A DNA stretch of 64,000 nucleotides, taken from NCBI RefSeq assembly GCF_019312595.1, contig NZ_JAHWDQ010000004.1, forward strand, positions 248,001-312,000, read 5' to 3'. Below the pieces are notes generated by a model. The model had not been told where the DNA came from. It was given only the letters and a program-made list of their open reading frames with translations, and ran no database searches. The position numbers and the translations under genes are program-made. The DNA is from Zhongshania aquimaris (GTDB lineage Bacteria > Pseudomonadota > Gammaproteobacteria > Pseudomonadales > Spongiibacteraceae). How positions within the stretch are numbered: position 1 is the stretch's first letter; each line of letters starts with the position of its first letter. This document shows, piece by piece, positions 37,345 through 57,494 of the stretch.

Positions 37345-38794
37345 TCCAGGCCCTGCCGTCTTTCTCTATAATTAATTCTGCTTTGGCCGGGCCCCAGGAG
37401 CCTGCGTGATAGGGTTTTATTTTTACATTTTGCCTGCCACAAGCTTGGGTGATGACATCACACCAGACCCAGGATTCTTCGATTTCCTCACGCCCCACAA
37501 AAAGTGACTGGTCACCCTGAATGACGTCGATGAACAGTCGCTCATATGCGTCGGGAATGCGATCTAAATCAGACGACCCCAAAAAGTCTAAATTTAAGGT
37601 TTGGCGAACCAGGGCCATTTTGCTCTTCAAGGTATTTTGTTTGGACACCATTTGCATTTCGATGCCCTCGTTGGGCTGAAGGCGAATCACCAAACGGTTC
37701 TGTGTGTCTTCGCTGCCTGAGAAAATATTATGGGGCAGACTTTTATAAGTGATCACAATTTCCGTCAGCTTCTCAGGCATCCGCTTACCAGTACGCAGGT
37801 AAAAGGGCACCCCCGCCCAGCGCCAATTGTCGATATGGGCTTTGATGGCCACAAAGGTTTCGGTATCACTTTCCTTTAACTCGCAACCTTCTTCCTGCAG
37901 GTAACCCGGCACCGCATTACCCTGATGCCAACCTGCCGAGTACTGTCCCCGCACAACACTTTGGGCAACATTGCTATCGTCGATCCGGCGCAGTGCGCGC
38001 AGGATTTTAACCTTCTCTTCTCGAATCGCCTCTGCGGTCATCGCATTCGGCGGCTCCATGGCCACCAGACACAAGAGCTGCATCAGGTGGTTCTGCACCA
38101 TATCGCGCAGTTGGCCGTAGCGGTCATAGTAGGACCAGCGCCCTTCAATCCCCACGGTTTCCGCGACGGTAATCTGAACGTGATCAATACAGCCTTGATC
38201 CCACTGGGTATTGATGAAGCGATTGGCAAAGCGCAGCACCAGCAGGTTTTGCACCGTCTCCTTGCCGAGGTAGTGATCGATTCGGTAGGTGTTTTCTTCA
38301 GTGAAGTACTGAGCCACGATTTCATTAACCTGCTTACAGCTTGCAAGGTCGTGACCAATCGGTTTTTCCAGAACAATACGGCTGCTGGGGAAAAGACACT
38401 GGCTGCTATCAAGGTGGGTACAGATCTGATCAAACAATCCCGGCGGTGTCGCGAGATAGTAAATGGCCGTGCGATCTTTGCTAACCCAATCCGCCAAGGC
38501 TTGGTAATACCTGCGCTCTGCAAAATCCAAAACTAAATAATCACAGCGCGCTGAGAACGACATCCAGGTGTCTTCCGACCAGCGGTCAGCACCTATCGCG
38601 GGCTGCACTCGCGCTTTAAGATGAAGTAAAAAGTCATCGAGACCCTGCTCCGGTCGCGCCACCCCAAGGATGCGCGTACCTTCCGGCAGAAGGTCGCAGT
38701 GGTGCAAATGGTATAGCGCGGGAAAAAGTTTGCGTGCAGACAAGTCGCCCATGGCACCAAAAATAATCAGGTCGGAACCGGCTTCTATACTCAT
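37337..38794 (-). CDS. zwf: Glucose-6-phosphate 1-dehydrogenase
   Basis: Zwf of 485 residues. The NADP motif FGAMGDLSARKLFPALYHL is near residue 12, and the active-site signature RIDHYLGKETVQNLLVLRFAN near 170 appears in full. It oxidises glucose-6-phosphate and makes NAD(P)H. The ATG at 38794 overlaps the eda stop by four bases (ATGA). It is the third gene of the Entner-Doudoroff operon. Confidence 0.96.
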   Translation of the reverse strand: MSIEAGSDLIIFGAMGDLSARKLFPALYHLHHCDLLPEGTRILGVARPEQGLDDFLLHLKARVQPAIGADRWSEDTWMSFSARCDYLVLDFAERRYYQALADWVSKDRTAIYYLATPPGLFDQICTHLDSSQCLFPSSRIVLEKPIGHDLASCKQVNEIVAQYFTEENTYRIDHYLGKETVQNLLVLRFANRFINTQWDQGCIDHVQITVAETVGIEGRWSYYDRYGQLRDMVQNHLMQLLCLVAMEPPNAMTAEAIREEKVKILRALRRIDDSNVAQSVVRGQYSAGWHQGNAVPGYLQEEGCELKESDTETFVAIKAHIDNWRWAGVPFYLRTGKRMPEKLTEIVITYKSLPHNIFSGSEDTQNRLVIRLQPNEGIEMQMVSKQNTLKSKMALVRQTLNLDFLGSSDLDRIPDAYERLFIDVIQGDQSLFVGREEIEESWVWCDVITQACGRQNVKIKPYHAGSWGPAKAELIIEKDGRAWNV

Positions 38795-39453
38795 TTATTA
38801 TGTCCTTCCCTAATCGCCGCAACTCGCAGGCAAGCTTCCCGCGCCAGCGCCGTGATGGCTGTCCAATTTCCCTCTCTGACCATGTCATCGGGGGTTAGCC
38901 AGGAACCGCCAACACTCAATACCGAGGGCACTGCAAGATAGTCTGCAATATTGTGTAAGCCGATACCGCCTGTCGGGCAAAAAGATATATCCGGGAACGG
39001 ACCACCGAAGGCCTTTAATGACTTTGCACCGCCCGACGATTCCGCCGGAAAAAATTTAAGAACCTTGAGCCCCGCTTCAGCGCAGACCATCAGTTCCGAC
39101 GCGCTTGAAATTCCCGGCAGGAAAGGCACCGGGGACTGGCAGCCTTCACTGAGTAAGCGGGGCGTTGTACCTGGCGTAATGATGAACTCACTGCCCGCCT
39201 TTATCGCCTCATCAAGACCACGCAGATTGGTTACAGTGCCAGCGCCAACAATCACACCCTCAAGCTCATCCTTAATCCGACGGATTGCCGGTAGGCCATG
39301 AGGCGTGCGCAGGGTGATTTCCAGCACCGGTAGACCACCATCGCGCAAAGCCATCGCTAAAGGGATGGCCGAATCAAGATTATGGATAGCAATGACGGGA
39401 ACGACCGGCGCCTGACGTAAAAGGTGTTTTATCACACTAGTGTGATCTGGCAT
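38791..39453 (-). CDS. eda: 2-keto-3-deoxy-6-phosphogluconate aldolase
   Basis: KDPG aldolase of 220 residues. The catalytic glutamate region is PVLEITLRTPHGLPAI, and VGAGTVTNLRGLDEAI follows. The Schiff-base lysine lies in LKVLKFFPAESSGG, and the phosphate site is FCPTGGIGLHNI. It splits KDPG into pyruvate and glyceraldehyde-3-phosphate. It starts three bases after the edd stop behind AGGGG. Confidence 0.96.
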   Translation of the reverse strand: MPDHTSVIKHLLRQAPVVPVIAIHNLDSAIPLAMALRDGGLPVLEITLRTPHGLPAIRRIKDELEGVIVGAGTVTNLRGLDEAIKAGSEFIITPGTTPRLLSEGCQSPVPFLPGISSASELMVCAEAGLKVLKFFPAESSGGAKSLKAFGGPFPDISFCPTGGIGLHNIADYLAVPSVLSVGGSWLTPDDMVREGNWTAITALAREACLRVAAIREGHNK

Positions 39454-39456
39454 GGA

Positions 39457-41283
39457 TTAAGCCCCTGTGAGTGAAAAGATTGACGCGCCTTGTTCCGGCG
39501 TCGATACCGTTGTTCTGAAGTTCTGGAATAATTCTCGGCCGATGCCCCTGCCTGAGACTTCCTCCGCACGCGCTGGTGTTCTTTTACTCAGCACGTCGGG
39601 ATCAACCAGGCATTCCAGTGTGCCCGTTGTCGCGTCAAGACGAATAATGTCTCCGTCTTGCACATAGGCCAGCATGCCGCCCGTAGACGCTTCCGGTGAG
39701 ATATGAATCGCCGCCGGCACTTTGCCAGACGCGCCCGACATACGCCCATCAGTAACCAGGGCAACGCGATACCCTTTATCCTGCAACGCCCCAAGAATGG
39801 GAGTCAGCTTGTGCAGTTCCGGCATGCCGTTGGCCGCCGGCCCCTGGAAGCGAACCACTACCACGCAATCCCGATTGAGATCGCCCGCGTCGAAGCGAGC
39901 CTGAAGAGTGTGCTGGCTCGCAACAACCACCGCAGGCGCTTCAACGATGCGATGAGCGGCATCGACGGCAGATACTTTAATCACGCCGCGGCCGAGATTG
40001 CCTTTAAGCAAACGCAAGCCACCTTCATTGTCGAAGGGAGTTTGAATACTCGCCAATACTTGCGTATCCAGGCTTTCCTCAACGCAAGGCTGCCACTCGA
40101 GTTGATCGTCGATTAGCTTTGGCTCAAGGGTAAAATCAGCAAACGATTTGCCCCACATAACTTCAGCATCACCATGCATCAATCCGGCTTTTAGCAGTGT
40201 AGAAAACAAATAACCCGTGCCACCCGCCGCATGAAAGTGATTAATGTCTGCCTGACCATTGGGATAGATGCGGGCTAACAATGGCACTACCGCGGAAAGA
40301 TCATCAAAGTCATCCCAGTTGATCAGAATGCCGGCGGCCTGCGCGATGGCGATCAAATGGATGCTGTGATTGGTCGAACCGCCGGAGGAGAGCAGCGCGA
40401 CTATCGCATTGACGATGGCGCGCTCATCAACGACCTCGCCTAAGGACCTGGGACTCGGAGTCTGCTGGGTAATACGTGTGATGTGTTGTGCGGCTTCGCG
40501 GGTCAACGCGTCTCGCAACGAGGTATTCGGGTTCACAAAGGAACTGCCGGGAAGCTGCAGGCCCATCGCTTCCATCATCACTTGATTGCTATTGGCAGTG
40601 CCATAAAATGTGCAGGTACCAGCAGAGTGGTACGACGCGGACTCGGCTTCCAGCAATTCTGCGCGACTGGCTTTGCCTTCGGCAAACAACTGCCTCACCC
40701 GCGCCTTTTCTTTATTGGGAATGCCCGACGGCATAGGTCCCGCAGGCACAAACATCATCGGCAGATGACCAAAACGCAAGGCGCCAATAAGAAGCCCCGG
40801 CACAATCTTGTCGCAAATCCCAAGGCAGAGCACACCGTCAAACATATGATGGGACAAGGCAACAGCCGTACTCAGCGCAATCACGTCGCGACTAAAAAGG
40901 CTGAGCTCCATCCCCGCCTGCCCCTGAGTCACCCCATCGCACATGGCGGGCACACCACCGGCAACCTGAGCCGTGGAACCCACTTCACGGATCGCGGCTT
41001 TAAGTCGTTCAGGGTAATCTGCATAGGGCTGATGGGCAGACAGCATGTCATTGTAGGACGTGACGATACCGATATTAGACGCCTCCATAAGGCGAATTCG
41101 GTCCTTGTCGGTGGGCTCGCAGGCGGCAAAGCCATGGGCCAAATTGCCGCAGCTTAAATGCTGACGTGTGGGCCGTGTACCGCAGTTATCGTCCAGCTGC
41201 GCCAGGTAGTCGCGCCGCGACGACGCGCTGCGCTGAATAATTCTTTGCGTAACGCCTGCGATTTCACTAGTGACGCTATGCAT
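39457..41283 (-). CDS. edd: Phosphogluconate dehydratase
   Basis: Edd of about 608 residues, an IlvD/Edd-family iron-sulfur dehydratase. Signature segments are the ligand-cysteine region [55 protein letters not shown] and the C-terminal [18 protein letters not shown]. It converts 6-phosphogluconate to KDPG. The start is the ATG at 41283, nine bases after AAGGA; a TTG three codons earlier is unlikely. It heads the ED operon. No HexR gene or HexR-like operator is visible in the 88-base upstream gap. Confidence 0.96.
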
Positions 41284-41371
41284 ACAATGCAATCCTTAAA
41301 TATGTTCAATTAACGCAAAAATGAATAATTCCAATAGGAACGTATCCACTCGGTGGCGTAGTACCCGCTAA

Positions 41372-42286
41372 CTATAGCGAAGGTTCAATACCTAGATTAT
41401 TGAAGACAGGCAACAAAGTGTCTTGGATCGTCTGGGGGTACTCGGAGTCCGTGAAATCAATGATATCGGCCCAAGCTGCGACTACAGCCTCTGCACCTAA
41501 CGGTGCTTGTGGATCAAATTTGACGCCACGACTTCGTTCCCAACGCAATTTAGCAATCCAGCCGGCACCGACCTCAAATAACTCTCCTGTTTCCGCCTGT
41601 TGCTCAGAGGCCAATTTGACTACGAGCGGCGTTACAAGCTCCGGCTTCAAGCCTGCAATCACCTCGGCCGGAAGTATAGCTTCGGTAAGGCGAGAAGCTG
41701 CAACCGGAGCAATACAATTGACCTTAATATTCTTTGGCGCTCCCTCAATGGCCAAGGTTCTAGTGAAGCCATACAGTCCGAGCTTAGCACTACTATAATT
41801 TGCTTGACCGAAATTGCCGTAAATACCTGCCCCAGACGCGGTATTTATAATTCGTCCATAGCCCTGTTCGCGCATATACGGCCATGCTGCGTGGGTAACT
41901 TTGTAACTACCGAAGGTATGAACTCGATGGATGAGTTCCCAGTCCTGATCAGTCATTTTTTGAAAACTGGTATCCCTCAAAATTCCAGCATTATTGATAA
42001 CCACGTCCACCCGGCCAAAGTGTTCAACGGCGGTTTGAACAATGGCTTCGCCTTGTTCTACAGAGTCACAGTTGGCAACAGCAATACCACCTAGTGCGAT
42101 AATCTCATCAACCACTTGCTCGGCCGCTTTTACGCAATTGCCTTCACCGTGACCACTACCACCCAAATCATTGACCACAACCTTTGCGCCACGACGTGCA
42201 AATTCGAGGGCATGGGAGCGGCCCAAGCCCGCTCCAGCGCCGGTAACTATGACAACACGATTATCAAACCGGATTTGCTCTGACAT
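41372..42286 (-). CDS. SDR of the MFE-2/17-beta-HSD4 type ((3R)-hydroxyacyl-CoA dehydrogenase-like)
   Basis: SDR of about 304 residues. The cofactor region VVIVTGAGAGLGRSHALEF followed by VVVNDLGGSGHGEG is the hallmark of the dehydrogenase part of peroxisomal multifunctional enzyme 2 and bacterial homologues. INNAGILRD, a serine in NTASGAG, YSSAK for Tyr/Lys and VNCIAPVAASR complete the motifs. Such proteins oxidise 3-hydroxyacyl-CoA or side chains in steroid degradation. Start at the ATG 42286; a GTG four codons upstream is possible. It is the last gene of the operon with two CoA ligases, fitting a beta-oxidation step. Confidence 0.88.
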   Translation of the reverse strand: MSEQIRFDNRVVIVTGAGAGLGRSHALEFARRGAKVVVNDLGGSGHGEGNCVKAAEQVVDEIIALGGIAVANCDSVEQGEAIVQTAVEHFGRVDVVINNAGILRDTSFQKMTDQDWELIHRVHTFGSYKVTHAAWPYMREQGYGRIINTASGAGIYGNFGQANYSSAKLGLYGFTRTLAIEGAPKNIKVNCIAPVAASRLTEAILPAEVIAGLKPELVTPLVVKLASEQQAETGELFEVGAGWIAKLRWERSRGVKFDPQAPLGAEAVVAAWADIIDFTDSEYPQTIQDTLLPVFNNLGIEPSL

Positions 42287-42420
42287 ATTAGAAATCACTT
42301 ACTTGAGTTTAATTTTGAAAAAAACACTTCAATTCATACAAATAGTCATTCACTTTCTGAAAATTCGACGACACTACAGCTATGAAAAACTACGTATTGC
42401 CGAGTCCACAAAGCAATCAA

Positions 42421-43899
42421 CTATCCTCCGCGCTCATCGCGAAGTTTGCTTCTGCGAATTTTCCCCGCCTCATCCCGAGGTAAAGCTTCCAATATTTCGT
42501 AACTTTTCGGCGCTTTATAAAGCGACAAATTAGCCTTCACATAGACACTTAGCTCTTCAAAACTAGGTGCATCCTCACCCGCAATTGTCTGAATTACCGC
42601 GTGTACACGGCGCCCGAGATCATCATCCTTTAAACCAATAACAACGACATCAGCAACTCCCGGCATTTGCAAAATAACTGATTCAACTTCTGCAGGATAA
42701 ATATTTGCACCTCCCGAAATAATGAGGTCTGTCCTGCGGTCTGTGAGAAATAGATAGCCCTCATCATCAACGTAACCCAAGTCACCAACACTGGCGAAGT
42801 CGTCCTCAAGAGTTTCCAAAGGCTTAGCGCCGAGATAGCAGTATTGCGCGCCACCTTTTGCAAAGCGGGTAAATATCTCACCAACCTCATTGCAAGGCAG
42901 CTGACGACGTTTCTCATCCAAAATTCTGATTTCAGTATTAAATCCCCGGCCCACACTACCTTTGCGCTCCAACCATTCGGAACCCGTAATCACCGCGATG
43001 CCGGTGTTCTCCGTCGCCGCCCAAAGTTCATAAAGTTTTTCAGCACCGATCTTTTCGAGCCAAATCTGCTTAACCCATTCCGGACAAGGAGCCGCCATAT
43101 GCCAAACACGCTTGATACTGGCAAAGTTACACTTCTGAAAAAATTCAGATCGAGCCATTCTCAGCATCATCGTAGGTACCACGCTGACAATAGTCGGCGC
43201 CAACTCATGAATGGCATTCAAACAGCGATCAGCATCAAACTTTTCATTGATGATTGCAGTTGCTCCTGCAAACAAAGCAATTTGCGTAAATAAAAAAGCT
43301 TGATTGTGATATAACGGCCCCGGAGAATAGAAGACGTCCTCACTAGCAATACCCATTAATAAAGCAAACGGATGGCTTTCTGGCGGAAAATAGAACGCCA
43401 GAGGAGAGACAATCAATTTAGGCGTTCCCGTGGAACCGCCGGACGCAATCGCCTTAAATGGCTGTGGAATCGCATCTGGCAGTGATGAATCTAGATAGCG
43501 ATCAGAATTCTGAATTTGGCGCATTTCATCGCGACTTATACCCGAAAGTGCCTCGACATCACTGAAAATAGCCACTGGGCTAGCCAGCTGAATCATTGCA
43601 TCTCTCTCAGAATCCGGAAGACGATAGGCCAGTGGCATTGGACAAGCACCCAATTTGTAGATCGCCAACGTCGCGACAACATGCTCTAGGCAATTCGGGA
43701 AATGAATAGCAACAAACTTGCCTGGCACAACATCATATTCCGACAACCGGCGCGCTACCCTATTAGCCCAACGCTCCAACTGGCCAGTCGTAAGTAAGTC
43801 ATGACTGCCATCCTGCTTAATAAAGATCAGGGCGGTTTTGTCGGGATGCAGGCTAGCAAGTTGAGTAAGCCTTGCCCCAGGGGTAAGTTCTTGGGTCAC
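42421..43899 (-). CDS. AMP-binding acyl-CoA ligase, bile-acid-CoA-ligase-like
   Basis: ANL-family ligase of about 492 residues. The nucleotide motif is IASGGSTGTPKLIVSP, the GGSTGxPKLI variant seen in bile-acid/steroid-side-chain CoA ligases rather than the usual SGTTGxPKG. Later motifs are LWAATENTG, SVGDLGYVDDEGYLFLTDR, IISGGANIYPAEVES and the terminal DEAGKIRRSKL. The start is GTG at 43899, after GGAGAAAACTTA. It lies between an esterase and the MFE-2-type SDR in the same operon. Substrate unknown; a long or ring-bearing acid is likely. Confidence 0.88.
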   Translation of the reverse strand: MTQELTPGARLTQLASLHPDKTALIFIKQDGSHDLLTTGQLERWANRVARRLSEYDVVPGKFVAIHFPNCLEHVVATLAIYKLGACPMPLAYRLPDSERDAMIQLASPVAIFSDVEALSGISRDEMRQIQNSDRYLDSSLPDAIPQPFKAIASGGSTGTPKLIVSPLAFYFPPESHPFALLMGIASEDVFYSPGPLYHNQAFLFTQIALFAGATAIINEKFDADRCLNAIHELAPTIVSVVPTMMLRMARSEFFQKCNFASIKRVWHMAAPCPEWVKQIWLEKIGAEKLYELWAATENTGIAVITGSEWLERKGSVGRGFNTEIRILDEKRRQLPCNEVGEIFTRFAKGGAQYCYLGAKPLETLEDDFASVGDLGYVDDEGYLFLTDRRTDLIISGGANIYPAEVESVILQMPGVADVVVIGLKDDDLGRRVHAVIQTIAGEDAPSFEELSVYVKANLSLYKAPKSYEILEALPRDEAGKIRRSKLRDERGG

Positions 43900-43948
43900 T
43901 AAGTTTTCTCCAGTTGGCACTATATCAAACGGCAGTTATTAGAAATTT

Positions 43949-44857
43949 TTATCTATTTTTCGCAACATCGCGCTCAAGCATGCGCCCAATGTCATCGTAT
44001 ATATTTTTTATTTTACGCAGACTGTATGGCAACACGAGAAACCCGTGAGGCATACCCAAGTAACGCTTCAGTGTTACAGGAACACCAGCTTCGACAAGCC
44101 GCATTCCATAGGCTTCACCGTCGTCGCAAACAGGATCTATTTCAGCGGTCATCACAAATGCAGGCGGACAATCGCTTAAATCAACTCGCAGGTATGGAGA
44201 AGCATCGGGGTTAAGCTGATCCAGCTCGGGATTGGCCAAGTATTGCTCTTTGCACCACTGTGCCGATTCGGTAGTAAGCCCCAAGGCCTTCGCATGACGC
44301 TGGTACGATGGAAACGGCATAGAAAAATCTGTCACTGGGAATACCAGTACTTGGTAACGCAATCTAGCGCGGAGCCTTTGAGCAATAACAGCCGCCAAAT
44401 TTCCTCCCGCGCTCTCACCCATAATCAACACTCGAGAGGGATCGCATCCCAAACTTGCCGCATTGTCCAGTATCCAAATAGTTGCGGCTTCTGCGTCCTG
44501 CAATCCGGCAGGAAATTTGTGCTCCGGAGCTAATCTGTAGTCAACAGCACTGACCGCAAACCCGGTGACATGAGAAAGTTGACGGCAAACCGCATCGTGC
44601 GTATCTAGATTGCCCATACACCAGCCTCCGCCATGCAAGAATACAATCATTCCCAAAGATTCAACATCGGATGGGTAATAGACTCTAATGGGAATCGGCC
44701 CAGCTAAACCTTCGACCGACATATCTTCCACTCGGCTCAGCTCAAGTTTAGGCTGCGATTGCGCGTACTCAATGCTAAAGCTTCGAAGCGCGTCTACGCT
44801 AACAGTGTCAATATCGACATTCGGTGGAATGTACGGGGCTATTTCGGGATCAATCAC
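43949..44857 (-). CDS. Alpha/beta hydrolase, HSL-type carboxylesterase
   Basis: HSL/family IV esterase of 302 residues with HGGGWCMG near residue 76, the nucleophile in GESAGGNLAA (Ser149), Asp241 in EIDPVCDDGEAYG and His271 in MPHGFLVL. The start is GTG at 44857, eight bases after GGAG. No signal peptide is visible, so it acts in the cytoplasm. It lies between two CoA ligase genes, suggesting that it frees acids for CoA activation. Confidence 0.9.
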   Translation of the reverse strand: MIDPEIAPYIPPNVDIDTVSVDALRSFSIEYAQSQPKLELSRVEDMSVEGLAGPIPIRVYYPSDVESLGMIVFLHGGGWCMGNLDTHDAVCRQLSHVTGFAVSAVDYRLAPEHKFPAGLQDAEAATIWILDNAASLGCDPSRVLIMGESAGGNLAAVIAQRLRARLRYQVLVFPVTDFSMPFPSYQRHAKALGLTTESAQWCKEQYLANPELDQLNPDASPYLRVDLSDCPPAFVMTAEIDPVCDDGEAYGMRLVEAGVPVTLKRYLGMPHGFLVLPYSLRKIKNIYDDIGRMLERDVAKNR

Positions 44858-44935
44858 TGTAAATCTCCGTATATTATTTTAATCCAATCGCGGTGTTAAA
44901 TAGATATTCGTCAAAGGTTTTCACGAGTCGTGATA

Positions 44936-46624
44936 TCAAACTTCAAGTCTTTGCTCATCGAGCATTTCAGACATGGCTTCGCGCATTTTAAATTTCTGCA
45001 TCTTTCCCGTAACCGTCATAGGATAGTCGTCGACGAACTGAACATAGCGAGGCACCTTAAAGTGGGCGATCTTCCCCTTACACCAGGCCCGCAACTCTTC
45101 GCTATCCATGCCCTCTCCATTTTTCAATTTAACCCAAACACACACTTCCTCTCCCATTCGCTCATCAGGAATACCAAACACTTGAGCCTCCTGAATTTTC
45201 GGATGGGTATAAAGAAACTCTTCGATCTCACGCGGGTAAATATTTTCGCCGCCCCGAATCACCATGTCCTTGGTTCGTCCGACAATACGTACATAGCCAT
45301 CTTCGTCCATAACACCGATATCACCAGAGTGCAGCCAACCGCCAGTATCGATGGTTTCGCGAGTTTTCTCTTCATCATTCCAATAGCCACGCATCACCGA
45401 ATAACCACGGGTACATACCTCGCCCTTTTCCCCAACCTCTACTACCCTACCGTCGTCATCAGCTATTTTTACTTCAATTCGTGGAACGGCCCGCCCAACA
45501 GTCTCGATTCGGTTGCGCAATGAATCCTCGGGCTTGGTGATCAGATTGATTGGACTGAGTTCGGTCTGCCCATAAGCAATTAAGATATTTTCCATATTCA
45601 TATCTGATATCACCCGCCGCATGACTTGTTCTGGACATGTCGCACCAGCCATCACACCGGTACGCAGACTTGAGAGGTTAAAGCTGGAAAAGCTAGGATG
45701 ATCTAGCTCGGCAATAAACATGGTAGGGACGCCGTGCAATACCGTGCACTTCTCTTCCTGCACCGCTTCTAATGTGGATACCGGATCGAAAGCTAACTCT
45801 GGAAAAACCGCCGCGGCTCCACTGGTGACGCAGGTGAGATTGCCCAGCACCATACCAAAACAGTGATAGAGCGGAACAGGAATACACAAGCGATCATGCT
45901 CGTTCAGAGACATGGCACGTCCGACCAGGTTGCCGTTGTTAAGAATATTGCAATGGGTCAGCGTGGCTCCCTTTGGCCGCCCAGTAGTGCCACTCGTAAA
46001 CTGAATATTAATTGGATCATCTGGGCGCAAATCTTGCGCCAGCGTCAACAAACGATGAGACTCAACCTCACCACCCATCCCACATACAGCGGGGAAGTTA
46101 AGCATACCGTCCGTAAGCTCTGTCCCCATACGAATTATCATGTCGAGATGCGGCAATTTTTCGATCTTTAGCGCACAGGCATCACCTGATTTAATTTCGG
46201 GGCCGAGCTCATTGAGCATATCCAGATAGTTACTGGATTTAAAGCTCTCGGCGGTGACAAGCACACGACACTCTACTTTATTCAGGGCGTACTCAAGTTC
46301 GAAAAGCCTATAAGCAGGGTTAACGCACACCATGATGGCGCCGATTTTAGCCGTCGCGAATTGGGTAACACACCATTCAAAACTATTAGGCCCCCAAATA
46401 CCCACTCGATCGCCGGGTTGAATACCAAGAGCTAATAGACCTTTCGCAAGGCGATCAACTTCATATCGGTACTCTCGATAACTCCAGCGGACGTTCTGGT
46501 GCCGCACTATCAACGCATCTTCATCCGGAAACCGATCTGCTACTTGATTGAAATAATTCCCAATTGTGTCGTAAATTAACGGTTGGTCTGCATCCCCACA
46601 ACTGTAGCTTTTACTTAACTTCAT
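44936..46624 (-). CDS. Fatty-acyl-CoA synthetase, ACSF2-like
   Basis: AMP-binding enzyme of 562 residues. Motifs are IQFTSGTTGRPKGATLTHCN near residue 200, PLYHCFGMVLGNL, YGQTELSPIN, GWLHSGDIGVMDEDGYVRI and MVIRGGENIYPREIEEFL, with MTVTGKMQKFKMRE at the C-terminus. Length and motif wording match the ACSF2 group, which activates medium-chain acids. It directly follows the TonB receptor gene (27 bases). Downstream a 13-base inverted repeat (TCACGA-G-TCGTGA, 44921-44933) has no T-run. Confidence 0.9.
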   Translation of the reverse strand: MKLSKSYSCGDADQPLIYDTIGNYFNQVADRFPDEDALIVRHQNVRWSYREYRYEVDRLAKGLLALGIQPGDRVGIWGPNSFEWCVTQFATAKIGAIMVCVNPAYRLFELEYALNKVECRVLVTAESFKSSNYLDMLNELGPEIKSGDACALKIEKLPHLDMIIRMGTELTDGMLNFPAVCGMGGEVESHRLLTLAQDLRPDDPINIQFTSGTTGRPKGATLTHCNILNNGNLVGRAMSLNEHDRLCIPVPLYHCFGMVLGNLTCVTSGAAAVFPELAFDPVSTLEAVQEEKCTVLHGVPTMFIAELDHPSFSSFNLSSLRTGVMAGATCPEQVMRRVISDMNMENILIAYGQTELSPINLITKPEDSLRNRIETVGRAVPRIEVKIADDDGRVVEVGEKGEVCTRGYSVMRGYWNDEEKTRETIDTGGWLHSGDIGVMDEDGYVRIVGRTKDMVIRGGENIYPREIEEFLYTHPKIQEAQVFGIPDERMGEEVCVWVKLKNGEGMDSEELRAWCKGKIAHFKVPRYVQFVDDYPMTVTGKMQKFKMREAMSEMLDEQRLEV

Positions 46625-46651
46625 ATTATTGACCTCTAACTTCTATCGCTA

Positions 46652-48919
46652 TTAGAAACTGCCAGATAGGCGCACGCTAAATGACATGGGAGTAATATAA
46701 TAAAACTCATTGGCCGCAGCCTCAGGCACTGGAAGCCCAGAGGTAAATGCGTTGGTAATCCCACGTTCATCAGTAACGTTATTTGCTATAAGCGAAATTT
46801 TTGGGAGCCATTTGTAGCTTTCATTCGACAGGCTTAACTGCAAGTCGACTTGATGATAGCCATAAATTTCCATGCCATTAAAGAAGGGCTGAGTTGATCC
46901 AATAGCGGTGTAGCTTGCAAACCCTCCAACGGTCCAGTTACCGAAGATCTGTTGAAACGATAGTGTGGTGGCTGACTGTGTCTTGGGTGCAAGAGGCCAC
47001 CGAGACCCCGAAGGTATTGCAGTACCATCAGAGGTAGAAAACTCTGCGGTAGTGACTGTATCGGCATAGGATAGAGAAGATGTCAGCATCAGACCGGCCC
47101 AAGGAAAAAGATACTGTACTGCCACGTCAAGACCTTTACTTTCCACACCGCCGACGTTGTCGATATAGACTGCTAAGCCAGAGGCATCCGGCTGTAAACT
47201 TTGGGGCTTATCCCAATCGACCTGGTACGCAGTCAGATCTAATCTCAATGTGTTGTCAAACCACTCTGTTCTAATACCTAGCTCGTAATTCCACAACGTA
47301 TCAGACTCAAACGTTTCTGGTGCCGAATTTTGAGACAGTGGCGTAGTCACTCCAAACTGAACGCCGCCAACTCGGAAGCCTTTAGACGCTAAAGCATAAG
47401 TAAGGATCTCGTCAGTGACGTTCCATGTGACAGAAAGCTTGGGATTAAATCCGTCCTCCTCAACACGGCCTGACAAGGTAAAATTGGGAGAACCTTGTTG
47501 GGTCAAAACAAATAGACCATTTTGTCTATTGTCACCACCCGACGTGGTTTTGTACTTCCGGCCACCCACCGCTACCTCAATATCCTTGGTTAATCGGTAG
47601 CTAATCTCGCCAAAAATAGCCTGCTCTTCAACCACTACATCTGCAACCGATCCAAGAACAATAGGGTTACCTTGCGCGGTAAAAAGGTCACTGCTCTGCA
47701 ATTGCAGTGGAGAAAGAAAATCCAAAATAGGTAAAACAAAAGGAGCGTCAACAGCAACTGGTACGGTCAGTGTAGTCTGAATATCCTGTTTCCAATCGAA
47801 GTAGCCAATCGTCCACTTGAAATCCTGGTTGAATTCATCGTTGGACACAATGCGAAACTCGTGACCTGTTGTTTCGGATTCACCAGTATAAGCTTGTGCT
47901 TGCAATGCCAAGTCTCCGCTGCCTGAAACCCGCGAGGAGGCATCAAAAAACCTGTCGCCCGTCTTTTCGACATAAGAACCGTCGTAGACGAAGTCTGCCC
48001 AATGCCAAGTATAGCTCAATGAAAGATTTGCTAATTTGTAGTCGGTATCATCTGGGCTGCTGCGCGGCCGATTTCTGGTCACCAATGCACCATTGTCTGA
48101 GTCCACAATTCCCACGTCTTTCTTCAAGGTATCTTGCCACGCAGCAGTGAACAACGTATCCCACTTGGCAGTGGGCTGAAAAGCAAGCAACACACGTCCG
48201 CCTTCCTGCTCGATTTCATTCACATCTTTCTGGCCTAGCTGTAGATTATCGACATATCCCGGCGCAGTGCGTTTAAACGCCATCGCACGCAGTGCCAGCT
48301 TGTCCGATACAATAGGCGCATTCAGCGCAGCGCCGTAAGTCGGCTCCTTAGCACCACCTTTAATCGAAGTCTGCTGCGCAAACCATTTCAACTCATTCCC
48401 TTCAAAGCTTGGTCTTTCCGGAACGTAGCGGACAGCGCCGTTAAGGGCAGAAGCACCATAGAGTGTTCCCTGAGGCCCTTTCAACACCTCAACTGACTGC
48501 ATATCAAACGGATTAGGATCCAACGATACAAAGGGCACATAAGTATCAGAGAACGACACATTGCCAAAGAGAATCCCCGTCGTGGAACTCGTTCCGATAT
48601 CTGACGAGATTCCTCGGATGGTGACTCGCGCTGGACTGTCCCCCGTCGAAGTCATATTAGCCCCTGGAACAAGCTTAATGATGTCCGCGGCATCTTGCGC
48701 CCCTCGCGCCTCGAGATCCTCACCTGAAAATGCGGAAATGCTGGCCGCAATTTCTCTGAGATTTTCGCTTCGTTTTGTCGCAGTAACTATAATTTCTTCT
48801 ATAGTACGAGTACTACTTGCTTGTGACTTCCCATCTGACACCTTCTTTTGAGCGTAGACGGATGGCACGCAAATAAAAAATGCAATCAAGACACCGAACT
48901 GTTTCATCTGGAATTTCAT
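46652..48919 (-). CDS. TonB-dependent outer-membrane receptor
   Basis: Receptor of about 755 residues. The signal peptide is MKFQMKQFGVLIAFFICVP, cut after VYAQ. The plug contains IEEIIVTATKRSENLREIAAS (TonB-box-like), MTSTGDSPARVTIRGISSD and VEVLKGPQGTLYGASALNG. The barrel ends SVRLSGSF. The start is the ATG at 48919 behind GGGAG; the longer frame to 49006 overlaps the trehalase. It is embedded between a trehalase and an acyl-CoA synthetase, so the cargo may be an acylated sugar (inference). Confidence 0.92.
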   Translation of the reverse strand: MKFQMKQFGVLIAFFICVPSVYAQKKVSDGKSQASSTRTIEEIIVTATKRSENLREIAASISAFSGEDLEARGAQDAADIIKLVPGANMTSTGDSPARVTIRGISSDIGTSSTTGILFGNVSFSDTYVPFVSLDPNPFDMQSVEVLKGPQGTLYGASALNGAVRYVPERPSFEGNELKWFAQQTSIKGGAKEPTYGAALNAPIVSDKLALRAMAFKRTAPGYVDNLQLGQKDVNEIEQEGGRVLLAFQPTAKWDTLFTAAWQDTLKKDVGIVDSDNGALVTRNRPRSSPDDTDYKLANLSLSYTWHWADFVYDGSYVEKTGDRFFDASSRVSGSGDLALQAQAYTGESETTGHEFRIVSNDEFNQDFKWTIGYFDWKQDIQTTLTVPVAVDAPFVLPILDFLSPLQLQSSDLFTAQGNPIVLGSVADVVVEEQAIFGEISYRLTKDIEVAVGGRKYKTTSGGDNRQNGLFVLTQQGSPNFTLSGRVEEDGFNPKLSVTWNVTDEILTYALASKGFRVGGVQFGVTTPLSQNSAPETFESDTLWNYELGIRTEWFDNTLRLDLTAYQVDWDKPQSLQPDASGLAVYIDNVGGVESKGLDVAVQYLFPWAGLMLTSSLSYADTVTTAEFSTSDGTAIPSGSRWPLAPKTQSATTLSFQQIFGNWTVGGFASYTAIGSTQPFFNGMEIYGYHQVDLQLSLSNESYKWLPKISLIANNVTDERGITNAFTSGLPVPEAAANEFYYITPMSFSVRLSGSF

Positions 48920-48947
48920 CACTTTTAACTCCCAATTATTATTTTCA

Positions 48948-50738
48948 TCAATCAAATCCGACCACCGCGGCGATCTCGTCACTAGCGTGGATAAGTTCAA
49001 AGCCAAGCACTTTATTCAGCATCCAGACAAAGCTGGCGTTGGTCCACAAGAAGCCTTCCTGCACAGGATACTGATGGCGATTACTTTCAGGCAGATCGCA
49101 ATGCTCCACATCGATGCGCTCGTAAAAGCCACCGTGCCTATGGAAAATTTCAGCCAATGTTCTGGTCCATCGATTAGCAATATCTTTTGCTTGCTCGGTG
49201 TAGCCATAATTCAAAAAGCCAGCAACAGCCATCATTTGAGCTGGCGCCCAACCATTGCCACCATCCCATTGATGAACTGTGGGGCGTACAGTGTTGCTTG
49301 CAAGCCCTCCATGTCGTAATAACTCACTGGATGACATGGCAACTAAACGCGCCTGTCTTTTTGACGCGACCCCAACGTACAGCGGAGCAAACGTTGTAAA
49401 ATCCACTCCCGGACTAAACTGCTTATTGGACAGATTCAGACTGCGATAATAGCCTGCCTTTTCATCCCATAAATGCCTATCAATAGACGACCTACGCGCC
49501 GATGCAATCGCCGTGAACCGCTCATATTCATATGCCAGACCACAGAATCTGCTCAGCCAAGCAACATCTGAGGCAAACCCTGCCAGAAGCGCATTCAGAA
49601 GTACTGGCGCAAAATTAGTAATTTCGTTGCGAGCGGAATCGCCGTTAAATATCTCAGTGAAATCGAGCCCCGATTCCGCCATAGCTCTAACATCTCGCAA
49701 ACTCTTCCCTAACAGCGCCTCGTCATCTTTCCCATACCGCTCTGGACGCTCAACATCAAGCTCATCCCAGTGGCGGTGAAGCCCGTAAGAGCGATCAAAT
49801 CGTCGGTTTTCATCAGACCAAAAATTATCGAACTCACCGGCAAGCAAAGGGACAGCCCGATCTGAAACCCAATGCCTTAGTTTTTCAGAAAGTAACTTAT
49901 CATTACTCTCCTTTGCCTTTCGTTGGGTAGCCTCAACCACTGAACGAACCAGTCGGCTGGACAACGGCGGCTGAGATCGGGTTAGGTAGTAATCGCGATT
50001 TCCGTTGGGCACAAATCCAAAATGCCTTATCTGTTCAAGCAGATTTTCCGCTTGCATTTGCGCTAACTCCAACCTACCGGTGAGGATCAACCCATCGATG
50101 CTGAATCCTGTATCCCAATAGTATGACTCTAGGAATCGTCCTGCAGGAATTAGAAAAGGGTAAGGCGTGGGAATCAGGGAGCCCGAAGCGACGCCAGACG
50201 ATAGCTTGCAAAGTTTGGACCAGTGCGCTTCAACATAATCAAACGCATTTACAATTAATATGTCACTGTGTTGCAACGTAACTCGCTGCTTAAACAGACC
50301 GTTGGGGGCGATGGATAACGGCTCTTCGGGTCCATACGCACTGTCAATATAGGCCTTTAACACATCTCGCCGCCTTTCGGCGCCACGTGAGTCCACTAGT
50401 GCGAATTTCCGCGCCCAATGTTTGGTAAAGTTTTCATCCACAGACCGCATGGTAAAATCTGAAATAGGCTTATAGTCGTCATACAGCCCTATAATCCGAG
50501 CCTCTTCTACCAATGGGCTTGACAAGCCGGGAGAAGCTAGACTGGGAATAACCGTCTTCGCTGGCGCTGAATCGGGTAAATGCAGTTCATTAACAGACGG
50601 AATTTCCGGATAACGCTGAGATTTTCGCAACCGGGTGGCATGTGCCACCCTCGCTTCGATGGCGGTGATACCAGACACGCCCAGCGTCGCCTTATCAGCA
50701 ACGCGCCATTCAAATTCCAGTAATTGCGATAGAGTCAT
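48948..50738 (-). CDS. Alpha,alpha-trehalase, glycoside hydrolase family 37
   Basis: GH37 enzyme of 596 residues. Signature 1 appears as PAGRFLESYYWDTGF (residues 198-212) and signature 2 as QWDGGNGWAPAQ (490-501). NGNRDYYLTRSQPP (245-258) matches the substrate-binding loop. The likely catalytic acid is Asp359 in ESGLDF and the base Glu540 in FYERIDVE, followed by YPVQEGFLWTN. It hydrolyses trehalose to two glucose molecules. No signal peptide is seen, so it is cytoplasmic. The N-terminal 150 residues are divergent from E. coli TreA/TreF. Its ATG overlaps the upstream esterase stop (TAATG). Location among esterases and CoA ligases is unusual for a trehalase. Confidence 0.88.
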   Translation of the reverse strand: MTLSQLLEFEWRVADKATLGVSGITAIEARVAHATRLRKSQRYPEIPSVNELHLPDSAPAKTVIPSLASPGLSSPLVEEARIIGLYDDYKPISDFTMRSVDENFTKHWARKFALVDSRGAERRRDVLKAYIDSAYGPEEPLSIAPNGLFKQRVTLQHSDILIVNAFDYVEAHWSKLCKLSSGVASGSLIPTPYPFLIPAGRFLESYYWDTGFSIDGLILTGRLELAQMQAENLLEQIRHFGFVPNGNRDYYLTRSQPPLSSRLVRSVVEATQRKAKESNDKLLSEKLRHWVSDRAVPLLAGEFDNFWSDENRRFDRSYGLHRHWDELDVERPERYGKDDEALLGKSLRDVRAMAESGLDFTEIFNGDSARNEITNFAPVLLNALLAGFASDVAWLSRFCGLAYEYERFTAIASARRSSIDRHLWDEKAGYYRSLNLSNKQFSPGVDFTTFAPLYVGVASKRQARLVAMSSSELLRHGGLASNTVRPTVHQWDGGNGWAPAQMMAVAGFLNYGYTEQAKDIANRWTRTLAEIFHRHGGFYERIDVEHCDLPESNRHQYPVQEGFLWTNASFVWMLNKVLGFELIHASDEIAAVVGFD

Positions 50739-51652
50739 TAACGCAACTCTCCAACGATCAAATCAATCGCCTCAGGCGCGACTGAACATATGCTGGCTAA
50801 CGACAAGAAGCCATGCGGCATCCGCAGATAGTTTTCGTATCGCACAGGCACACCCGCTTCACGAAGACAATCCGCATACCTAGATCCATCATCTCTTAAA
50901 GGATCGCAATCAGCGGTTATGATCAACGCTGGAGGAAGTGCCGAAAGGTCAGTCGAACAGATCGGTGATATATAGGGGTTGCTCGCCTTCGCATTACCCT
51001 TATACACATTGACCATATCAACCATATCTTCACGCCGCAAACCAAGACGCGGAGGGTCTATCGACGCCGATTGCAAGGTGCCATCAAGGAAGGGATATAT
51101 AAGAACCTGTCGCTCAATTTTGACCTCCCCTCTTGCCTTGAGACACAGCGCGGCAGCAAGATTGCCGCCTGCGCTGTCGCCAACAACAATTACCGAACGC
51201 CCATCGACGGCAATAGTTTTCAACACATCCTCACAATCATTCAATCCGGCGGGAAAAGGAAAATCGGGAGCTAGGCGATATCCAACAGAGGTCACGTCTA
51301 GACCCAGCCGGTCGCACAAATTAGTGCACAGATAATCCAGCGAATCTTCGTTTCCGGCAAACCAGCCTCCACCGTGAATAAACAGTATTTGGCAAGCTCG
51401 ATCACTACTCACCTTGGGCAGGAATTTTTTCACCGGAATTACGCACTCCCGACCGTTCACGCTTCCTCGCTCTACGGTCACTTCGGGGATCGGAAGGAGC
51501 ATCCAAGGAGAAGGCCCCATAGCCGCACGCTTTTCCAAAGGCATTTGCATCACTTTTGCCCCGCCAGGAAAAAGTCGAAGCGCGACCAGTATCTCGGAAA
51601 CCGCCATAAAACCCCGTAAACGCCAGCCTTTAAGTGAAAGAATCGAACGCAC
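50738..51652 (-). CDS. Alpha/beta hydrolase, HSL-type carboxylesterase
   Basis: HSL esterase of about 304 residues with HGGGWFAGNEDS near residue 93, the nucleophile in VVGDSAGGNLAAA (Ser near 160), the acid in ADCDPLRDDGS and the base in RMPHGFLSL. The start is GTG at 51652, seven bases after GGAG. A TTG at 51664 or an ATG farther in (MAVSEILVAL) are alternatives. It heads the trehalase operon and is translationally coupled to it. Deacylation of an acylated trehalose before cleavage is a reasonable but unproven reading. Confidence 0.9.
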   Translation of the reverse strand: MRSILSLKGWRLRGFMAVSEILVALRLFPGGAKVMQMPLEKRAAMGPSPWMLLPIPEVTVERGSVNGRECVIPVKKFLPKVSSDRACQILFIHGGGWFAGNEDSLDYLCTNLCDRLGLDVTSVGYRLAPDFPFPAGLNDCEDVLKTIAVDGRSVIVVGDSAGGNLAAALCLKARGEVKIERQVLIYPFLDGTLQSASIDPPRLGLRREDMVDMVNVYKGNAKASNPYISPICSTDLSALPPALIITADCDPLRDDGSRYADCLREAGVPVRYENYLRMPHGFLSLASICSVAPEAIDLIVGELR

Positions 51653-52179
51653 AATGAACTCCAATCTTTTAAATTATAGTTATTCGACACACAGATGACG
51701 TAAGAAGCGCACCCACCTACACACACCACACATGATCGACAGCCATATAACAGTGAGCACAATCTAACAATTAATGCACACGATTGCAATAAGGCGGAAT
51801 TACGTAATAACCCGTACACTACAAGCCTCAATATTATAATTAACTAACTGTTTTACATATATTTTATTAAAAAAAACAGATTTAACGCCGCCATACAATT
51901 AAACCATTCCCCATAAAAAAACCCCTAAATTGCAAACCTGTGCATTTGAGCATACAATTCCCGTTCGCAGATGCATTTGATCGATACCGCTCGGAGATAC
52001 AGGGAAGCACCCCAGCTATCAGCAACTACCAAGCTAATCGGAACCGCAGCATTACAAATAGCAACCACCAGACAACCTTTCTTGAAACTGATAGCGTATA
52101 AGTACTGGGCAAGCACAATAGAAATATCGCGTATCCATCGCAAATCTGCTTAACAAACACTGGGAAATGAAATAACTCC
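51653..52179. promoter_or_regulatory. Divergent promoter region with two TGCA-N6-TGCA elements
   Basis: This AT-rich gap of 527 bases separates the esterase/trehalase operon from the LacI-family gene. Two TGCA-N6-TGCA inverted elements lie at 51775-51788 and 51931-51944, and a perfect ATTACGTAAT palindrome at 51799-51808. They are candidate LacI-family operators; no strong longer palindrome is seen. I find no credible gene in the gap, only short frames. Confidence 0.35.
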
Positions 52180-53178
52180 ATGACACACAAAAAGCGTCCT
52201 ATAGGCATGGTAGACATTGCGCGGCTAGCAGGAGTCTCCCGCCCCACCGTTTCGCGAGCGTTACAAGGCAGCCCATTAGTCAACGAAGAAACGAAAGAGC
52301 GAATCAGAGAGATTGCCTTACGCCATGGCTATATTGTCAATCGAAGCGCACAGAATCTCCGGCGCAAAAGAAACAATGTAATCGCTGTCGTTATTGACTT
52401 TCCGCACCTTCCAGAGAGTCGAATTTCCGATCCATTCCATTTTGAACTACTGGGAAATATCTCCAATGAACTAGCTAACCAAGGTCAAGACGTGCTGCTT
52501 TGCTCCACTCAGTCAGTCCACTCCGAACCTCTCGAACAAATGCTTTCTAGCAAAGGAGTAGACGGTATAATTTTCCTCGGCCAAAGTGGCGAGGAAGGTG
52601 AGCTCACCTCTCTGGCGAACAATGGCGTTCCGTTTGTTGTTTGGGGAGCAGAGCCGCAAAAGAAAGAATATTGCGTAGTTGGGAGCAACAATAAGCGAGG
52701 CGGAAAATTAGTCGCCAAAAGATTTACGGAGCTAGGCAGGACATCTGCCATGTTTGTTGGGCCAGACGATCACGACGAGATGAAACTCCGATTTTCAGGT
52801 TTCTCTTCTGAATGGAAAGGTGCTTTGGAAGAGCTGGCAGTTAAAGACATTTCCTTTCAATCCAGTCGTGATGCCGTTCTACATTGGCTAGATTCACATG
52901 ACTGGCATCCCGATGCAATCTTCGCGGGCAGCGATACCATGGCGATAGGAGTGCTTTCGGCACTAAAGGCAAAGGGCCTAAGCATCCCCTCTGACTGCAC
53001 CGTGTGCGGATATGACGACAGCCCTATTTCAATTTATCACAGCCCGTCACTGACCACTGTTAAGCAAGACACTTCCGCTGCGGGCATTCTTCTTGTCGCA
53101 AAGCTGATGAAAATAATTGAAGGTGAAATTCAAGAAAGTGAGATGCTTCGAACAGAATTAATAGAACGCGAAACGTAG
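52180..53178 (+). CDS. LacI-family transcriptional regulator
   Basis: Regulator of 332 residues. The N-terminal LacI helix-turn-helix is GMVDIARLAGVSRPTVSRAL, with the hinge helix NRSAQNLRRKR. The periplasmic-binding-protein-like core includes DGIIFLGQSG, VGSNNKRGGKLVAKRF, DAIFAGSDTMAIGVLSALK and VCGYDDSPIS. LacI proteins usually sense sugars. It diverges from the esterase/trehalase/receptor operon and is therefore the likely controller, perhaps answering to trehalose, glucose or a phosphorylated derivative. The ligand is not readable. Confidence 0.93.
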   Translation: MTHKKRPIGMVDIARLAGVSRPTVSRALQGSPLVNEETKERIREIALRHGYIVNRSAQNLRRKRNNVIAVVIDFPHLPESRISDPFHFELLGNISNELANQGQDVLLCSTQSVHSEPLEQMLSSKGVDGIIFLGQSGEEGELTSLANNGVPFVVWGAEPQKKEYCVVGSNNKRGGKLVAKRFTELGRTSAMFVGPDDHDEMKLRFSGFSSEWKGALEELAVKDISFQSSRDAVLHWLDSHDWHPDAIFAGSDTMAIGVLSALKAKGLSIPSDCTVCGYDDSPISIYHSPSLTTVKQDTSAAGILLVAKLMKIIEGEIQESEMLRTELIERET

Positions 53179-53367: not shown

Positions 53368-54272
53368 TCAAGGCACTGGAGCGCCATTACTAGCCTCCCA
53401 GATACGATACCACTGCTCGCGGCTGAGCTTGAAATTTTCGCTTCCTGCAGCCATTTTAACTCGTTCAATTTTGCCAGTTCCCAGCAGCGGAAAGGGTTTA
53501 CAAGGTAATGCGAGCGTCCAAGCATATATCACCTGCTCCGCCGTTTCTGCTCCCACCTCATCCTGAACCTCCTGCACCGCAGACATAACACGCCACCCCT
53601 TGTCATCGAACGGTGTCATGAGCGCCCCCCTGCCAGACAAGACCAAAGCATAGGGCTGATACCACCAGTCTGACATTGCTCAAACAAGCCACTGTCCAAC
53701 GCGGCAGTGTTGTACGGAGAAAACTCGACTTGGTTTGTCACTAAGCGTTGGTCACAAGCCTGCTGCAACAAAGCGAACTGCTGCACGCTAAAATTGGAAA
53801 CACCCACAGCGCGTACCTTACCCGACGAAAGCAATGTATCAAACGCCGAGGCGATTTCCTCAGCATGCATCAGGTAGTCTGGGCGGTGTATCAATAAAAG
53901 GTCGATATAGTCGGTGCGCAACTCGCGCAAAGAATTTTCTGTACTGGTAATAATTGATTGCGAACTGGAGTCATAGTGGTTAACTGCAGTGCCACCGAGC
54001 GGGCCAAAGCCCACCGGCCGGATTCCGCATTTAGTGACAATCTCCACCTGCCGCCGGAGTTCTGACTTTATAGCAAGAGCATCGCCAAAAGGCTTTTCAC
54101 TACTATAAACAAAAGCGTGATCCATAGTGGTCACACCGAGCTCTACGCACTGCTCAACAAAAGCAAGCAGCTGTCGAGGCGACATACCCCAGTGATTAAG
54201 TCGCCAAAAGCCAGCAATAAAACGCGAAAATTCTGGGCAGCCCCGCGTAAGCGGTGCGCGTGATAGGGTCAT
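53368..54272 (-). pseudogene. YdhF-like aldo/keto reductase, frameshifted at a G6 tract
   Basis: The first part (54272 down to about 53631) encodes an aldo/keto reductase with MDHAFVYSSEKPFG (Asp/Tyr), DYIDLLLIHRPDYLM (His) and VRAVGVSNFSVQQ, running into SPMLWSCLAGG and a premature stop at 53616. The missing C-terminus continues in another frame: ALMTPFDDKGWR, ETAEQVIYAWTLALP, FPLLGTGKIERVK and REQWYRIWEASNG, ending at 53368. The frames meet at six consecutive G (53625-53630 as C on the plus strand); a seventh G would restore one protein of about 301 residues. It may be a recent mutation, phase variation or a sequencing error. It stands alone between operons. Confidence 0.75.
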
Positions 54273-54703: not shown

Positions 54704-55585
54704 TCAAGTAATATCCCCACGTCCCTTGTCTTCTATTCCATATAAACTTCGATCATCCACCATCATGTCATGTGTTGGCGCCCGCTTTTCGCGTCTTGCA
54801 TCAAAGCACTCGTTAATATCGTCGCCGGGGAATGCACCGGACTGCCATGCCGCCGTATATCTGAGACTGGCTTCAACGCCGTAGGCCTTGGTAAATTTCA
54901 TTATTTCTTTTGCACCGCGAACCGCAATGGGTGAACGTCGCGCTATTCGCTCGGCCAAATTCTTCGCTAGCTCCGTCAGCTCTTGCGGAGATTGAGCGAT
55001 GCGGGAGGCGAAACCAATACTATTCGCGTCACTGCCAGTTAAGGATCGACAATCCATTAGCCAATCAGCGACTACACCATAAGGCAAGGTCGAGGTCAGA
55101 CGCTGAACCGTCCCTAAATCGGGAACAAAGCCAAGATCCATTTCCAGCGGTGTCAATGTCGTACCAATTTCTACAAGACGAATGTCGGCAGCACAGACCA
55201 AATCCAGGGCGCCACCAATACAGGCGCCCTGAATCGCCGCGACGACAGGGATGGGAGTCTGTTCAAGGCAGGAGATAGAGTTCTGCACCGACAAAATCGT
55301 GCGGCGGAGATAATCAGCACGTCGCGACACGTCTAGCTCACTTCCCAACACCTTTAGAGAATCTAGTAACGCCAGATCAATACCCGCGCTAAACATCGCG
55401 CCGTCGGCCCGAATTAAAATACATCGAATATCACCCCGAGATTCGGCGTATTTAACCGCCAATGGCAGTTCACGCCAGAAGTCACGTGTTAAGCAGTTCC
55501 TCTTTTCCGGGCTACTTAATACAATGTGAGCAACCATGTTTTCTACATTAAATTTAAAACTTTTGAATTCTGCTTCGTTGTTCAT
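54704..55585 (-). CDS. Crotonase-family protein, probable delta(3,5)-delta(2,4)-dienoyl-CoA isomerase (ECH1-like)
   Basis: Crotonase of 293 residues. The oxyanion-hole segments are MFSAGIDLALL near residue 64 and IQGACIGGALDLVCAADIR near 119. EMDLGFVPDLGTVQRL near 148 mirrors the mammalian ECH1 sequence. Asp128, Glu148 and Asp156 have the same spacing (20 and 8) as the ECH1 residues Asp176/Glu196/Asp204 recalled from the literature. It would shift double bonds in dienoyl-CoA from unsaturated acids. It is the last gene of the operon, 119 bases after the acyl-CoA dehydrogenase. Ordinary enoyl-CoA hydratase activity is less likely. Confidence 0.85.
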   Translation of the reverse strand: MNNEAEFKSFKFNVENMVAHIVLSSPEKRNCLTRDFWRELPLAVKYAESRGDIRCILIRADGAMFSAGIDLALLDSLKVLGSELDVSRRADYLRRTILSVQNSISCLEQTPIPVVAAIQGACIGGALDLVCAADIRLVEIGTTLTPLEMDLGFVPDLGTVQRLTSTLPYGVVADWLMDCRSLTGSDANSIGFASRIAQSPQELTELAKNLAERIARRSPIAVRGAKEIMKFTKAYGVEASLRYTAAWQSGAFPGDDINECFDARREKRAPTHDMMVDDRSLYGIEDKGRGDIT

Positions 55586-55704
55586 TTTTAAAATATCTTC
55601 CCTAAAAATATCCTAACTCGTGTTTAGCTAATTTGATCACCCAGGAAGTTTCCCGCCTGCATTACCCGGCAAAGGGCTAACTAGCAATTGTAAAAACCAG
55701 GTAA

Positions 55705-57462: not shown

Positions 57463-57494
57463 CTCAATTCTGTAATTTTAGAAACATCGCCACG

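Follow-up and report, generated by a model that had tools for sequence, protein, structure and literature searches.

Microbial synthesis of sugar-based biosurfactants has been much studied, and the GH37 enzymes characterised so far are, to our knowledge, all trehalases. Our literature searches on degradation listed no gene set in which CoA activation is combined with a TonB receptor, esterases and a glycosidase, and no description of an operon such as the one presented here. The Alcanivorax glycine-glucolipid is described as a glucose unit borne by four 3-hydroxy fatty acids (PMC10684412, available part), and the Rouxiella glucoselipids as glucose bearing acyl groups of 3-hydroxydecanoic and other acids, occurring as alpha and beta anomers (PMC12299268, available part). 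Here we analysed positions 248,001-312,000 (forward strand) of Zhongshania aquimaris contig NZ_JAHWDQ010000004.1, a stretch of 64,000 nt hereafter called the window, in which seven minus-strand genes, one of them encoding a GH37 glycosidase, diverge from a LacI gene and are followed by a second set of Entner–Doudoroff (ED) genes. Our preferred reading, to which we give slightly less than an even chance, is a catabolic island under LacI control that acts on an amphiphile linking glucose or an alpha-glucoside to at least one acid, with (R)-3-hydroxy fatty acids as the likeliest candidates.

An earlier note on this DNA had described the seven tightly packed genes with LacI diverging and glk, zwf, pgl, edd and eda directly downstream. 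Both descriptions are borne out: the seven genes and lacI are open frames, all with strong family matches in profile searches, and the downstream set lies on the same strand. In the order of the operon, the genes are as follows.

52180-53178, plus strand: divergent LacI-family regulator, assigned at Pfam level, all NCBIfam matches being below cut-off
50738-51664, minus strand: est1, the gene that opens the operon, HSL-type (Abhydrolase_3) esterase with HGGG and GDSAG motifs
48948-50738, minus strand: divergent GH37 (trehalase-family) glycosidase, Pfam Trehalase (PF01204) 292.6 bits, cut-off 21
46652-48919, minus strand: TonB-dependent outer-membrane receptor, likely start ATG at 48919, which opens the signal peptide
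44936-46624, minus strand: acyl-CoA synthetase, NCBIfam PRK12583 875 bits, cut-off 832
43949-44857, minus strand: est2, second HSL-type esterase with HGGG and GESAG motifs
42421-43920, minus strand: second CoA ligase, scored best by the NCBIfam model BaiB (378.5 bits, short of its cut-off of 650)
41372-42298, minus strand: SDR of 308 aa, nearest to the (3R)-hydroxyacyl-CoA dehydrogenase parts of MFE-2
39457-41292, minus strand: edd, second copy in this genome
38791-39453, minus strand: eda, second copy
37337-38794, minus strand: zwf, second copy
36646-37344, minus strand: pgl, second copy
35628-36593, minus strand: glk, glucokinase, TIGR00749 317 bits, cut-off 225

The est1 stop and the GH37 start overlap in TAATG, the coupling that the earlier note had pointed out, and the GH37 stop is separated from the signal-peptide ATG of the receptor by 28 bp; the receptor open reading frame as listed extends to 49006, from a TTG. 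The N-terminus of est1 is fairly hydrophobic and leaves its cell location unsettled, and the name ACSF2 for the PRK12583 synthetase is a label of the earlier note. After the SDR, edd, eda, zwf, pgl and glk continue on the same strand. Because the SDR-edd gap is 79 bp and the scan lists no terminator-like site within it on the minus strand, a read-through transcript from the SDR into these genes, and hence co-transcription of the operon with the edd set, is possible; the promoter and terminator scans performed at chance level and were used solely for this point. GC content in 2-kb steps ranges from 0.435 to 0.549 with its peak at 38001-40000, inside the ED set, from which nothing firm is drawn.

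The GH37 protein is the sole match to that family in the genome, and no GH37 match at 1e-10 was found in the other 20 genomes of the bacterial family (three of them <90% complete). In wider sets, which overlap and count this genome, matches occurred in 14 of 390 order, 11 of 369 class and 32 of 388 phylum genomes. The homologues found are 31-38% identical to the protein along part of its length, 38% being the highest identity listed; viral contigs, plasmids and a scan of GTDB contigs gave no close GH37, the contig scans being made with short exact patterns that reach close relatives only. Scores to the NCBIfam TreA and TreF models lie below their cut-offs, and crude hydropathy indicates no signal peptide. 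The catalytic pair Asp359 and Glu540 is kept, with the same residues in 16 of 16 others in the alignment of the order set. This pair aligns with the catalytic Asp312 and Glu496 of E. coli trehalase (TreA), and the residues at the TreA glucose-contact positions are retained as well. Compared with E. coli TreA (2jf4) and the Enterobacter trehalase (5z66), the protein is thus alike in profile family, catalytic pair and these contact residues, but differs in the start of motif 5, in motif 2 and in the lid loop, and is encoded amid lipid-type genes.

The definitions of motifs 1-5 follow the available part of PMC10969515, and the looser motif 2 and the lid pattern are our own. Published motif 3 is present in GH37; motifs 1, 2 and 4 are not matched by it, and as strict strings they match 25, 2 and 23 of 34 other homologues, respectively. 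The looser motif 2 (QWDxPx[GA]WxP) fits all 34 homologues, not GH37. After the catalytic Glu, where motif 5 (EK[YF]D) is expected, GH37 has ERID; the full motif occurs in only 15 of the 34, its first three letters EK[YF] in all 34, and GH37 reads ERI there. The GG-E-Y lid loop, found in 31/34 homologues, is absent. According to the available part of PMC10969515, the lid-loop portions of motif 5 may be crucial to substrate identification. These counts exclude L004 and L005 (partial, weak GH37 matches) and include L108; homologue picking leaned partly on QWD or RSQ strings, by which none of the 34 loci was lost, and from the phylum search only nine GH37 places with new loci were used.

Divergence was also seen outside the motifs. 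GH37 deviates at 7 of the 52 columns that are invariant in 24 others (L108 not included), and when each homologue was left out in the same way the number was 0 for 19 homologues, 1 for each of two others, 3 for a single one, 9 for L003 and 12 for L111. In a tree of 25 branches the GH37 branch is the longest (6.28), followed by L111 (5.63), and L003 (3.06) is long as well, against a median of 0.4; that the branch stands alone would be too strong a statement, L111 being nearly as long. Residues W311, E511 and D516 (TreA numbering) were considered as invariant, which is true in the order set of 16 and fails more widely: L003 deviates at the E511 and D516 positions, L111 at all three, and at the W311 position Cys and His occur in solved enzymes from insect and yeast. 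Since these residues are not invariant beyond the order, the argument rests on EK[YF], motif 2 and the lid. Judged from its residues, GH37 is an active-looking but strongly changed protein, and not the sole member of that sort. Its changes fit an altered partner sugar or aglycone, and relaxed constraint may be an alternative cause. Tentatively, and with more doubt than confidence, we propose that it would act in a dedicated receptor-to-ED pathway as a glycolipid glucosidase, cleaving an alpha-glucoside with a hydroxy acid or another non-glucose partner, and not as a trehalase.

The association of the receptor with esterases could be counted. A family search at 1e-60 found receptor homologues at 13 places in nine genomes outside the window, of which 12 have an esterase within 3 kb and L121 has a DUF885 gene instead. 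De-duplication dropped the likely orthologous partners L114, L118 and L123, and a locus's own esterase never served as its reference. An esterase then lies nearby at 9/10 loci, against 2/43 other receptors of this genome (Fisher p ~1e-7), in a comparison where the reference esterases were drawn from the homologue loci and the window, somewhat favouring them, where other esterase families are missed in the controls, and where loci are not fully independent. The controls are 43 of the 62 other PF00593 places in this genome, with an esterase beside 0/40 of them and beside 2/3 of three further ones; those two (TonB26 and TonB31) are neighbours of a single PF00756 esterase in the window. L126, viewed apart from among the remaining 19, and L124b, receptor-like frames on the same contig, have no nearby esterase. 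The receptor thus belongs to an ester-linked group of TonB receptors. With the receptor-esterase gene pairs of the same bacterial family it shares a homologous receptor (~29-34%) and an esterase nearby; theirs are mainly COesterases (PF00135), and their genomes, besides this one, have no GH37.

The nearest relative of the receptor (40-41% identity) is at L042 in the congener G008. There, a PF00756 esterase stands beside the receptor on its strand, and the other strand carries a TetR gene (45% identical to the one at 34062-34739 of the window), an HSL esterase (41% to est2), a mannitol-dehydrogenase-family gene and an acyl-CoA ligase. L042 and the window operon share receptor, HSL esterase, CoA ligase and a carbohydrate-type enzyme, but L042 has TetR for LacI, a dehydrogenase for GH37, and no ED genes seen in 20 kb. 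We infer that L042 follows the same plan with a different carbohydrate enzyme. NCBIfam models for the dehydrogenase, all below cut-off, rank fructuronate reductase first and D-arabinitol dehydrogenase second, so that its substrate may be a polyol or a uronate. Known polyol lipids combine mannitol or arabitol with 3,5-dihydroxydecanoic acid (PMC10953688, available part). A phage-type integrase is encoded at L042:6159-7436, close to the ester cassette, and hints that such cassettes may move.

The nearest solved structures of the SDR are 2et6 (E 6.8e-171), 1zbq, 1gz6 and 3oml, over nearly its full length; it aligns with the (3R)-hydroxyacyl-CoA dehydrogenase of MFE-2 (1zbq) over residues 4-295, but is a stand-alone protein. 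An enzyme of this type would be useful if (R)-3-hydroxy acids were released and activated. For the second ligase, the nearest solved structure is bile acid-CoA ligase (4lgc).

The ED set beside the LacI-flanked operon is a second, divergent copy, extra to the genome. The edd gene is present in 20/21 family genomes, with two matches each in this genome and in G004. The other ED copy here is on contig C6, with flanks (flagellar-looking by eye) that resemble those of G017, so the C6 set is likely the core copy. Window edd and zwf share 66-70% identity with the sets of G010, G011 and G020, versus 61% and 46% with the C6 copy. Around 12 ED loci outside the window (11 family genomes, C6 included), no esterase, ligase, receptor or GH37 query match was found at 1e-20; other receptors lie beside L047, L049 and L050, LacI is matched weakly (28%) at L055, and an HSL-like frame with 27% identity to est1 lies ~7 kb from the C6 set. 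In G004 (L050 and L051), the second edd (L051) has no further ED gene within its stretch, and its listed identity to the first is 100%. In the window, 13 bases at 41279-41291 with 5-base inverted arms (TGCAT/ATGCA) overlap the listed edd start; they may be a site for a regulator of these ED genes or a chance occurrence.

In the preferred reading, the receptor would carry the ester across the outer membrane, est1 and est2 would cleave its ester bonds, and the divergent GH37 would free glucose from an alpha-glucosidic bond, the other partner probably not being free glucose. The two ligases would convert the acids to acyl-CoA, the MFE-2-type SDR would oxidise (3R)-hydroxyacyl-CoA to 3-ketoacyl-CoA, and the released glucose would pass to glk and the second ED set. 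Substrate, step order, regulation and passage of the inner membrane are here what we infer. Besides the receptor-esterase association, the reading draws on the SDR assignment, the first ligase scoring above its subfamily cut-off, the second ED copy beside the operon, the catalytic pair and contact residues kept in GH37, the two operator-like sites described below, and the existence of bacterial glucose lipids with 3-hydroxy acids. The earlier proposals of uptake of an acylated carbohydrate through the receptor, esterase cleavage, CoA activation and glucose flow into a dedicated ED set are counted as supported, given the receptor-esterase tie and L042 with its two esterases and acyl-CoA ligase.

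Several points weigh against this reading. The operon has no inner-membrane porter. No second operon copy was found around 12 edd loci of 11 family genomes or in the second-ligase and GH37 neighbourhoods (7 of 10 ligase matches outside this genome; 5 of the 13 further genomes of the order in which GH37 was matched), hence co-function rests on one genome. Beside GH37 in those five genomes there was no esterase, ligase or receptor query match at 1e-15, and the SDR query matched weakly (32%) in two of them. GH37 occurs in 1/21 family genomes, and these searches found no orthologous operon with which to compare the esterase-trehalase-receptor linkage; plasmids gave no receptor match at 1e-80, and as the receptor search scored two candidates per genome order-wide and <=49 family-wide, weak relatives could be missed. 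Relatives of the second ligase occur in other contexts without these genes. Moreover, CoA ligases within 6 kb are not enriched at receptor homologues (3/13 versus 6/40 controls), and the homologues lie mostly beside COesterases, not HSL esterases, in a comparison made without a receptor tree, with controls from one genome and homologues from nine. Since ligases are no commoner nearby, the homologues argue for esters and not for the entire pathway. As for the candidate substrates, a glycosidase would be needless for the Rouxiella glucoselipids, in which both anomers of acylated glucose occur (PMC12299268, available part), and the anomer of the Alcanivorax glycine-glucolipid is not given in the available part of PMC10684412.

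Trehalose lipids with hydroxylated acids exist, and the earlier note had proposed that an acylated trehalose is taken up and deacylated, that GH37 cleaves the trehalose and that the acids are activated with CoA. GH37 membership by profile, the intact catalytic pair, and esterases and ligases sharing a tight cluster agree with this, but the loss of EK[YF] (ERI here) and of the GG-E-Y lid, whose loop sections are possibly crucial for substrate identification (PMC10969515, available part), together with the longest of 25 branches (6.28; next L111 5.63; median 0.4), makes us regard it as improbable. Of that proposal, the acylated carbohydrate is strengthened by the receptor homologues tied to esterases and by L042, and the gene anatomy is real, whereas trehalose as the sugar is weakened, GH37 keeping Asp359/Glu540 but lacking EK[YF] and lid, with no close relative found. 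Plain turnover of the cell's own trehalose as a compatible solute, with neighbours incidental, appears very improbable. Trehalose may be made here, because the genome carries an OtsA-family synthase; such a synthase occurs in 15/21 family genomes, this one included, but a GH37 match only in this one, so turnover is an unlikely reason for the gene, which is moreover altered and linked to esterases.

Two unrelated modules may also have come to lie together, est1-GH37 for a glucoside under LacI, and receptor, ligase, esterase and SDR for a bulky ester such as a terpenoid or steroid. This too is improbable, though slightly less so than the trehalose ester. In its favour are the second ligase closest to bile acid-CoA ligase, the absence of block conservation in our searches, and, just upstream, an enoyl-CoA hydratase, an acyl-CoA dehydrogenase-like gene (models below cut-off) and what we take to be DUF1302/DUF1329-like genes. 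However, GH37 lies inside the run, TAATG-coupled to est1 and 28 bp from the receptor, and the set is bordered at one end by the LacI regulator and at the other by the second ED set with glk. Because the GH37 branch is not alone in its length and CoA ligases are not enriched near the receptor homologues, we rate the glucose-acid amphiphile and a non-trehalase GH37 slightly lower, and the two modules slightly higher.

Regulation by LacI would be consistent with two operator-like 18-mers between est1 and lacI, which are mutually inverted with starts 156 bp apart.

51773-51790, minus strand: operator-like 18-mer, copy 1, in the est1-lacI gap
51929-51946, plus strand: operator-like 18-mer, copy 2, 16/18 positions as in copy 1

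No third exact match to the pattern was found genome-wide; with <=3 mismatches there are 15 matches versus 3 for the reversed control, a count that is no independent test because the pattern was built from those very sites. We regard the 18-mers as candidate LacI operators.

Further genes surround the operon. Next to glk, 26058-34739 holds another ester-type set, in which the genes for TetR and a TonB receptor diverge, alongside a PF00756 esterase (several matched stretches), a second receptor and an L-lactate-dehydrogenase-like FMN enzyme (below NCBIfam cut-offs). On the other side, the frame of an aldo/keto reductase at ~53368-54272 stops at 53616 near a G run, and by eye its C-terminal part seems continued in another frame, which seems to be a frameshifted gene or a sequence error. 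At 54704-63534, an enoyl-CoA hydratase and then an acyl-CoA dehydrogenase-like gene stand in the same row as, presumably from the look of their sequences, two DUF1329-like, one DUF1302-like and one YCF48-like gene. About 12-18 kb to the right of the window end (L125:11886-17990, contig C7 of G000) are a second LacI-like gene (30%), an MFS porter, a xylose-isomerase-like protein, a GFO/IDH/MocA oxidoreductase, ThuA ('trehalose utilisation', PF06283) and a GMC oxidoreductase C-terminal part, a set that we take to look like a 3-keto-glycoside pathway. Lying some 25-31 kb from the GH37 gene, this set with its porter could provide the inner-membrane step for the island.

If the preferred reading is true, the island would be a testable pathway for consuming sugar-based biosurfactants and would allow ester-type receptors to be recognised in genomes, and its GH37 with an altered lid could reveal how the trehalase fold accepts other substrates.

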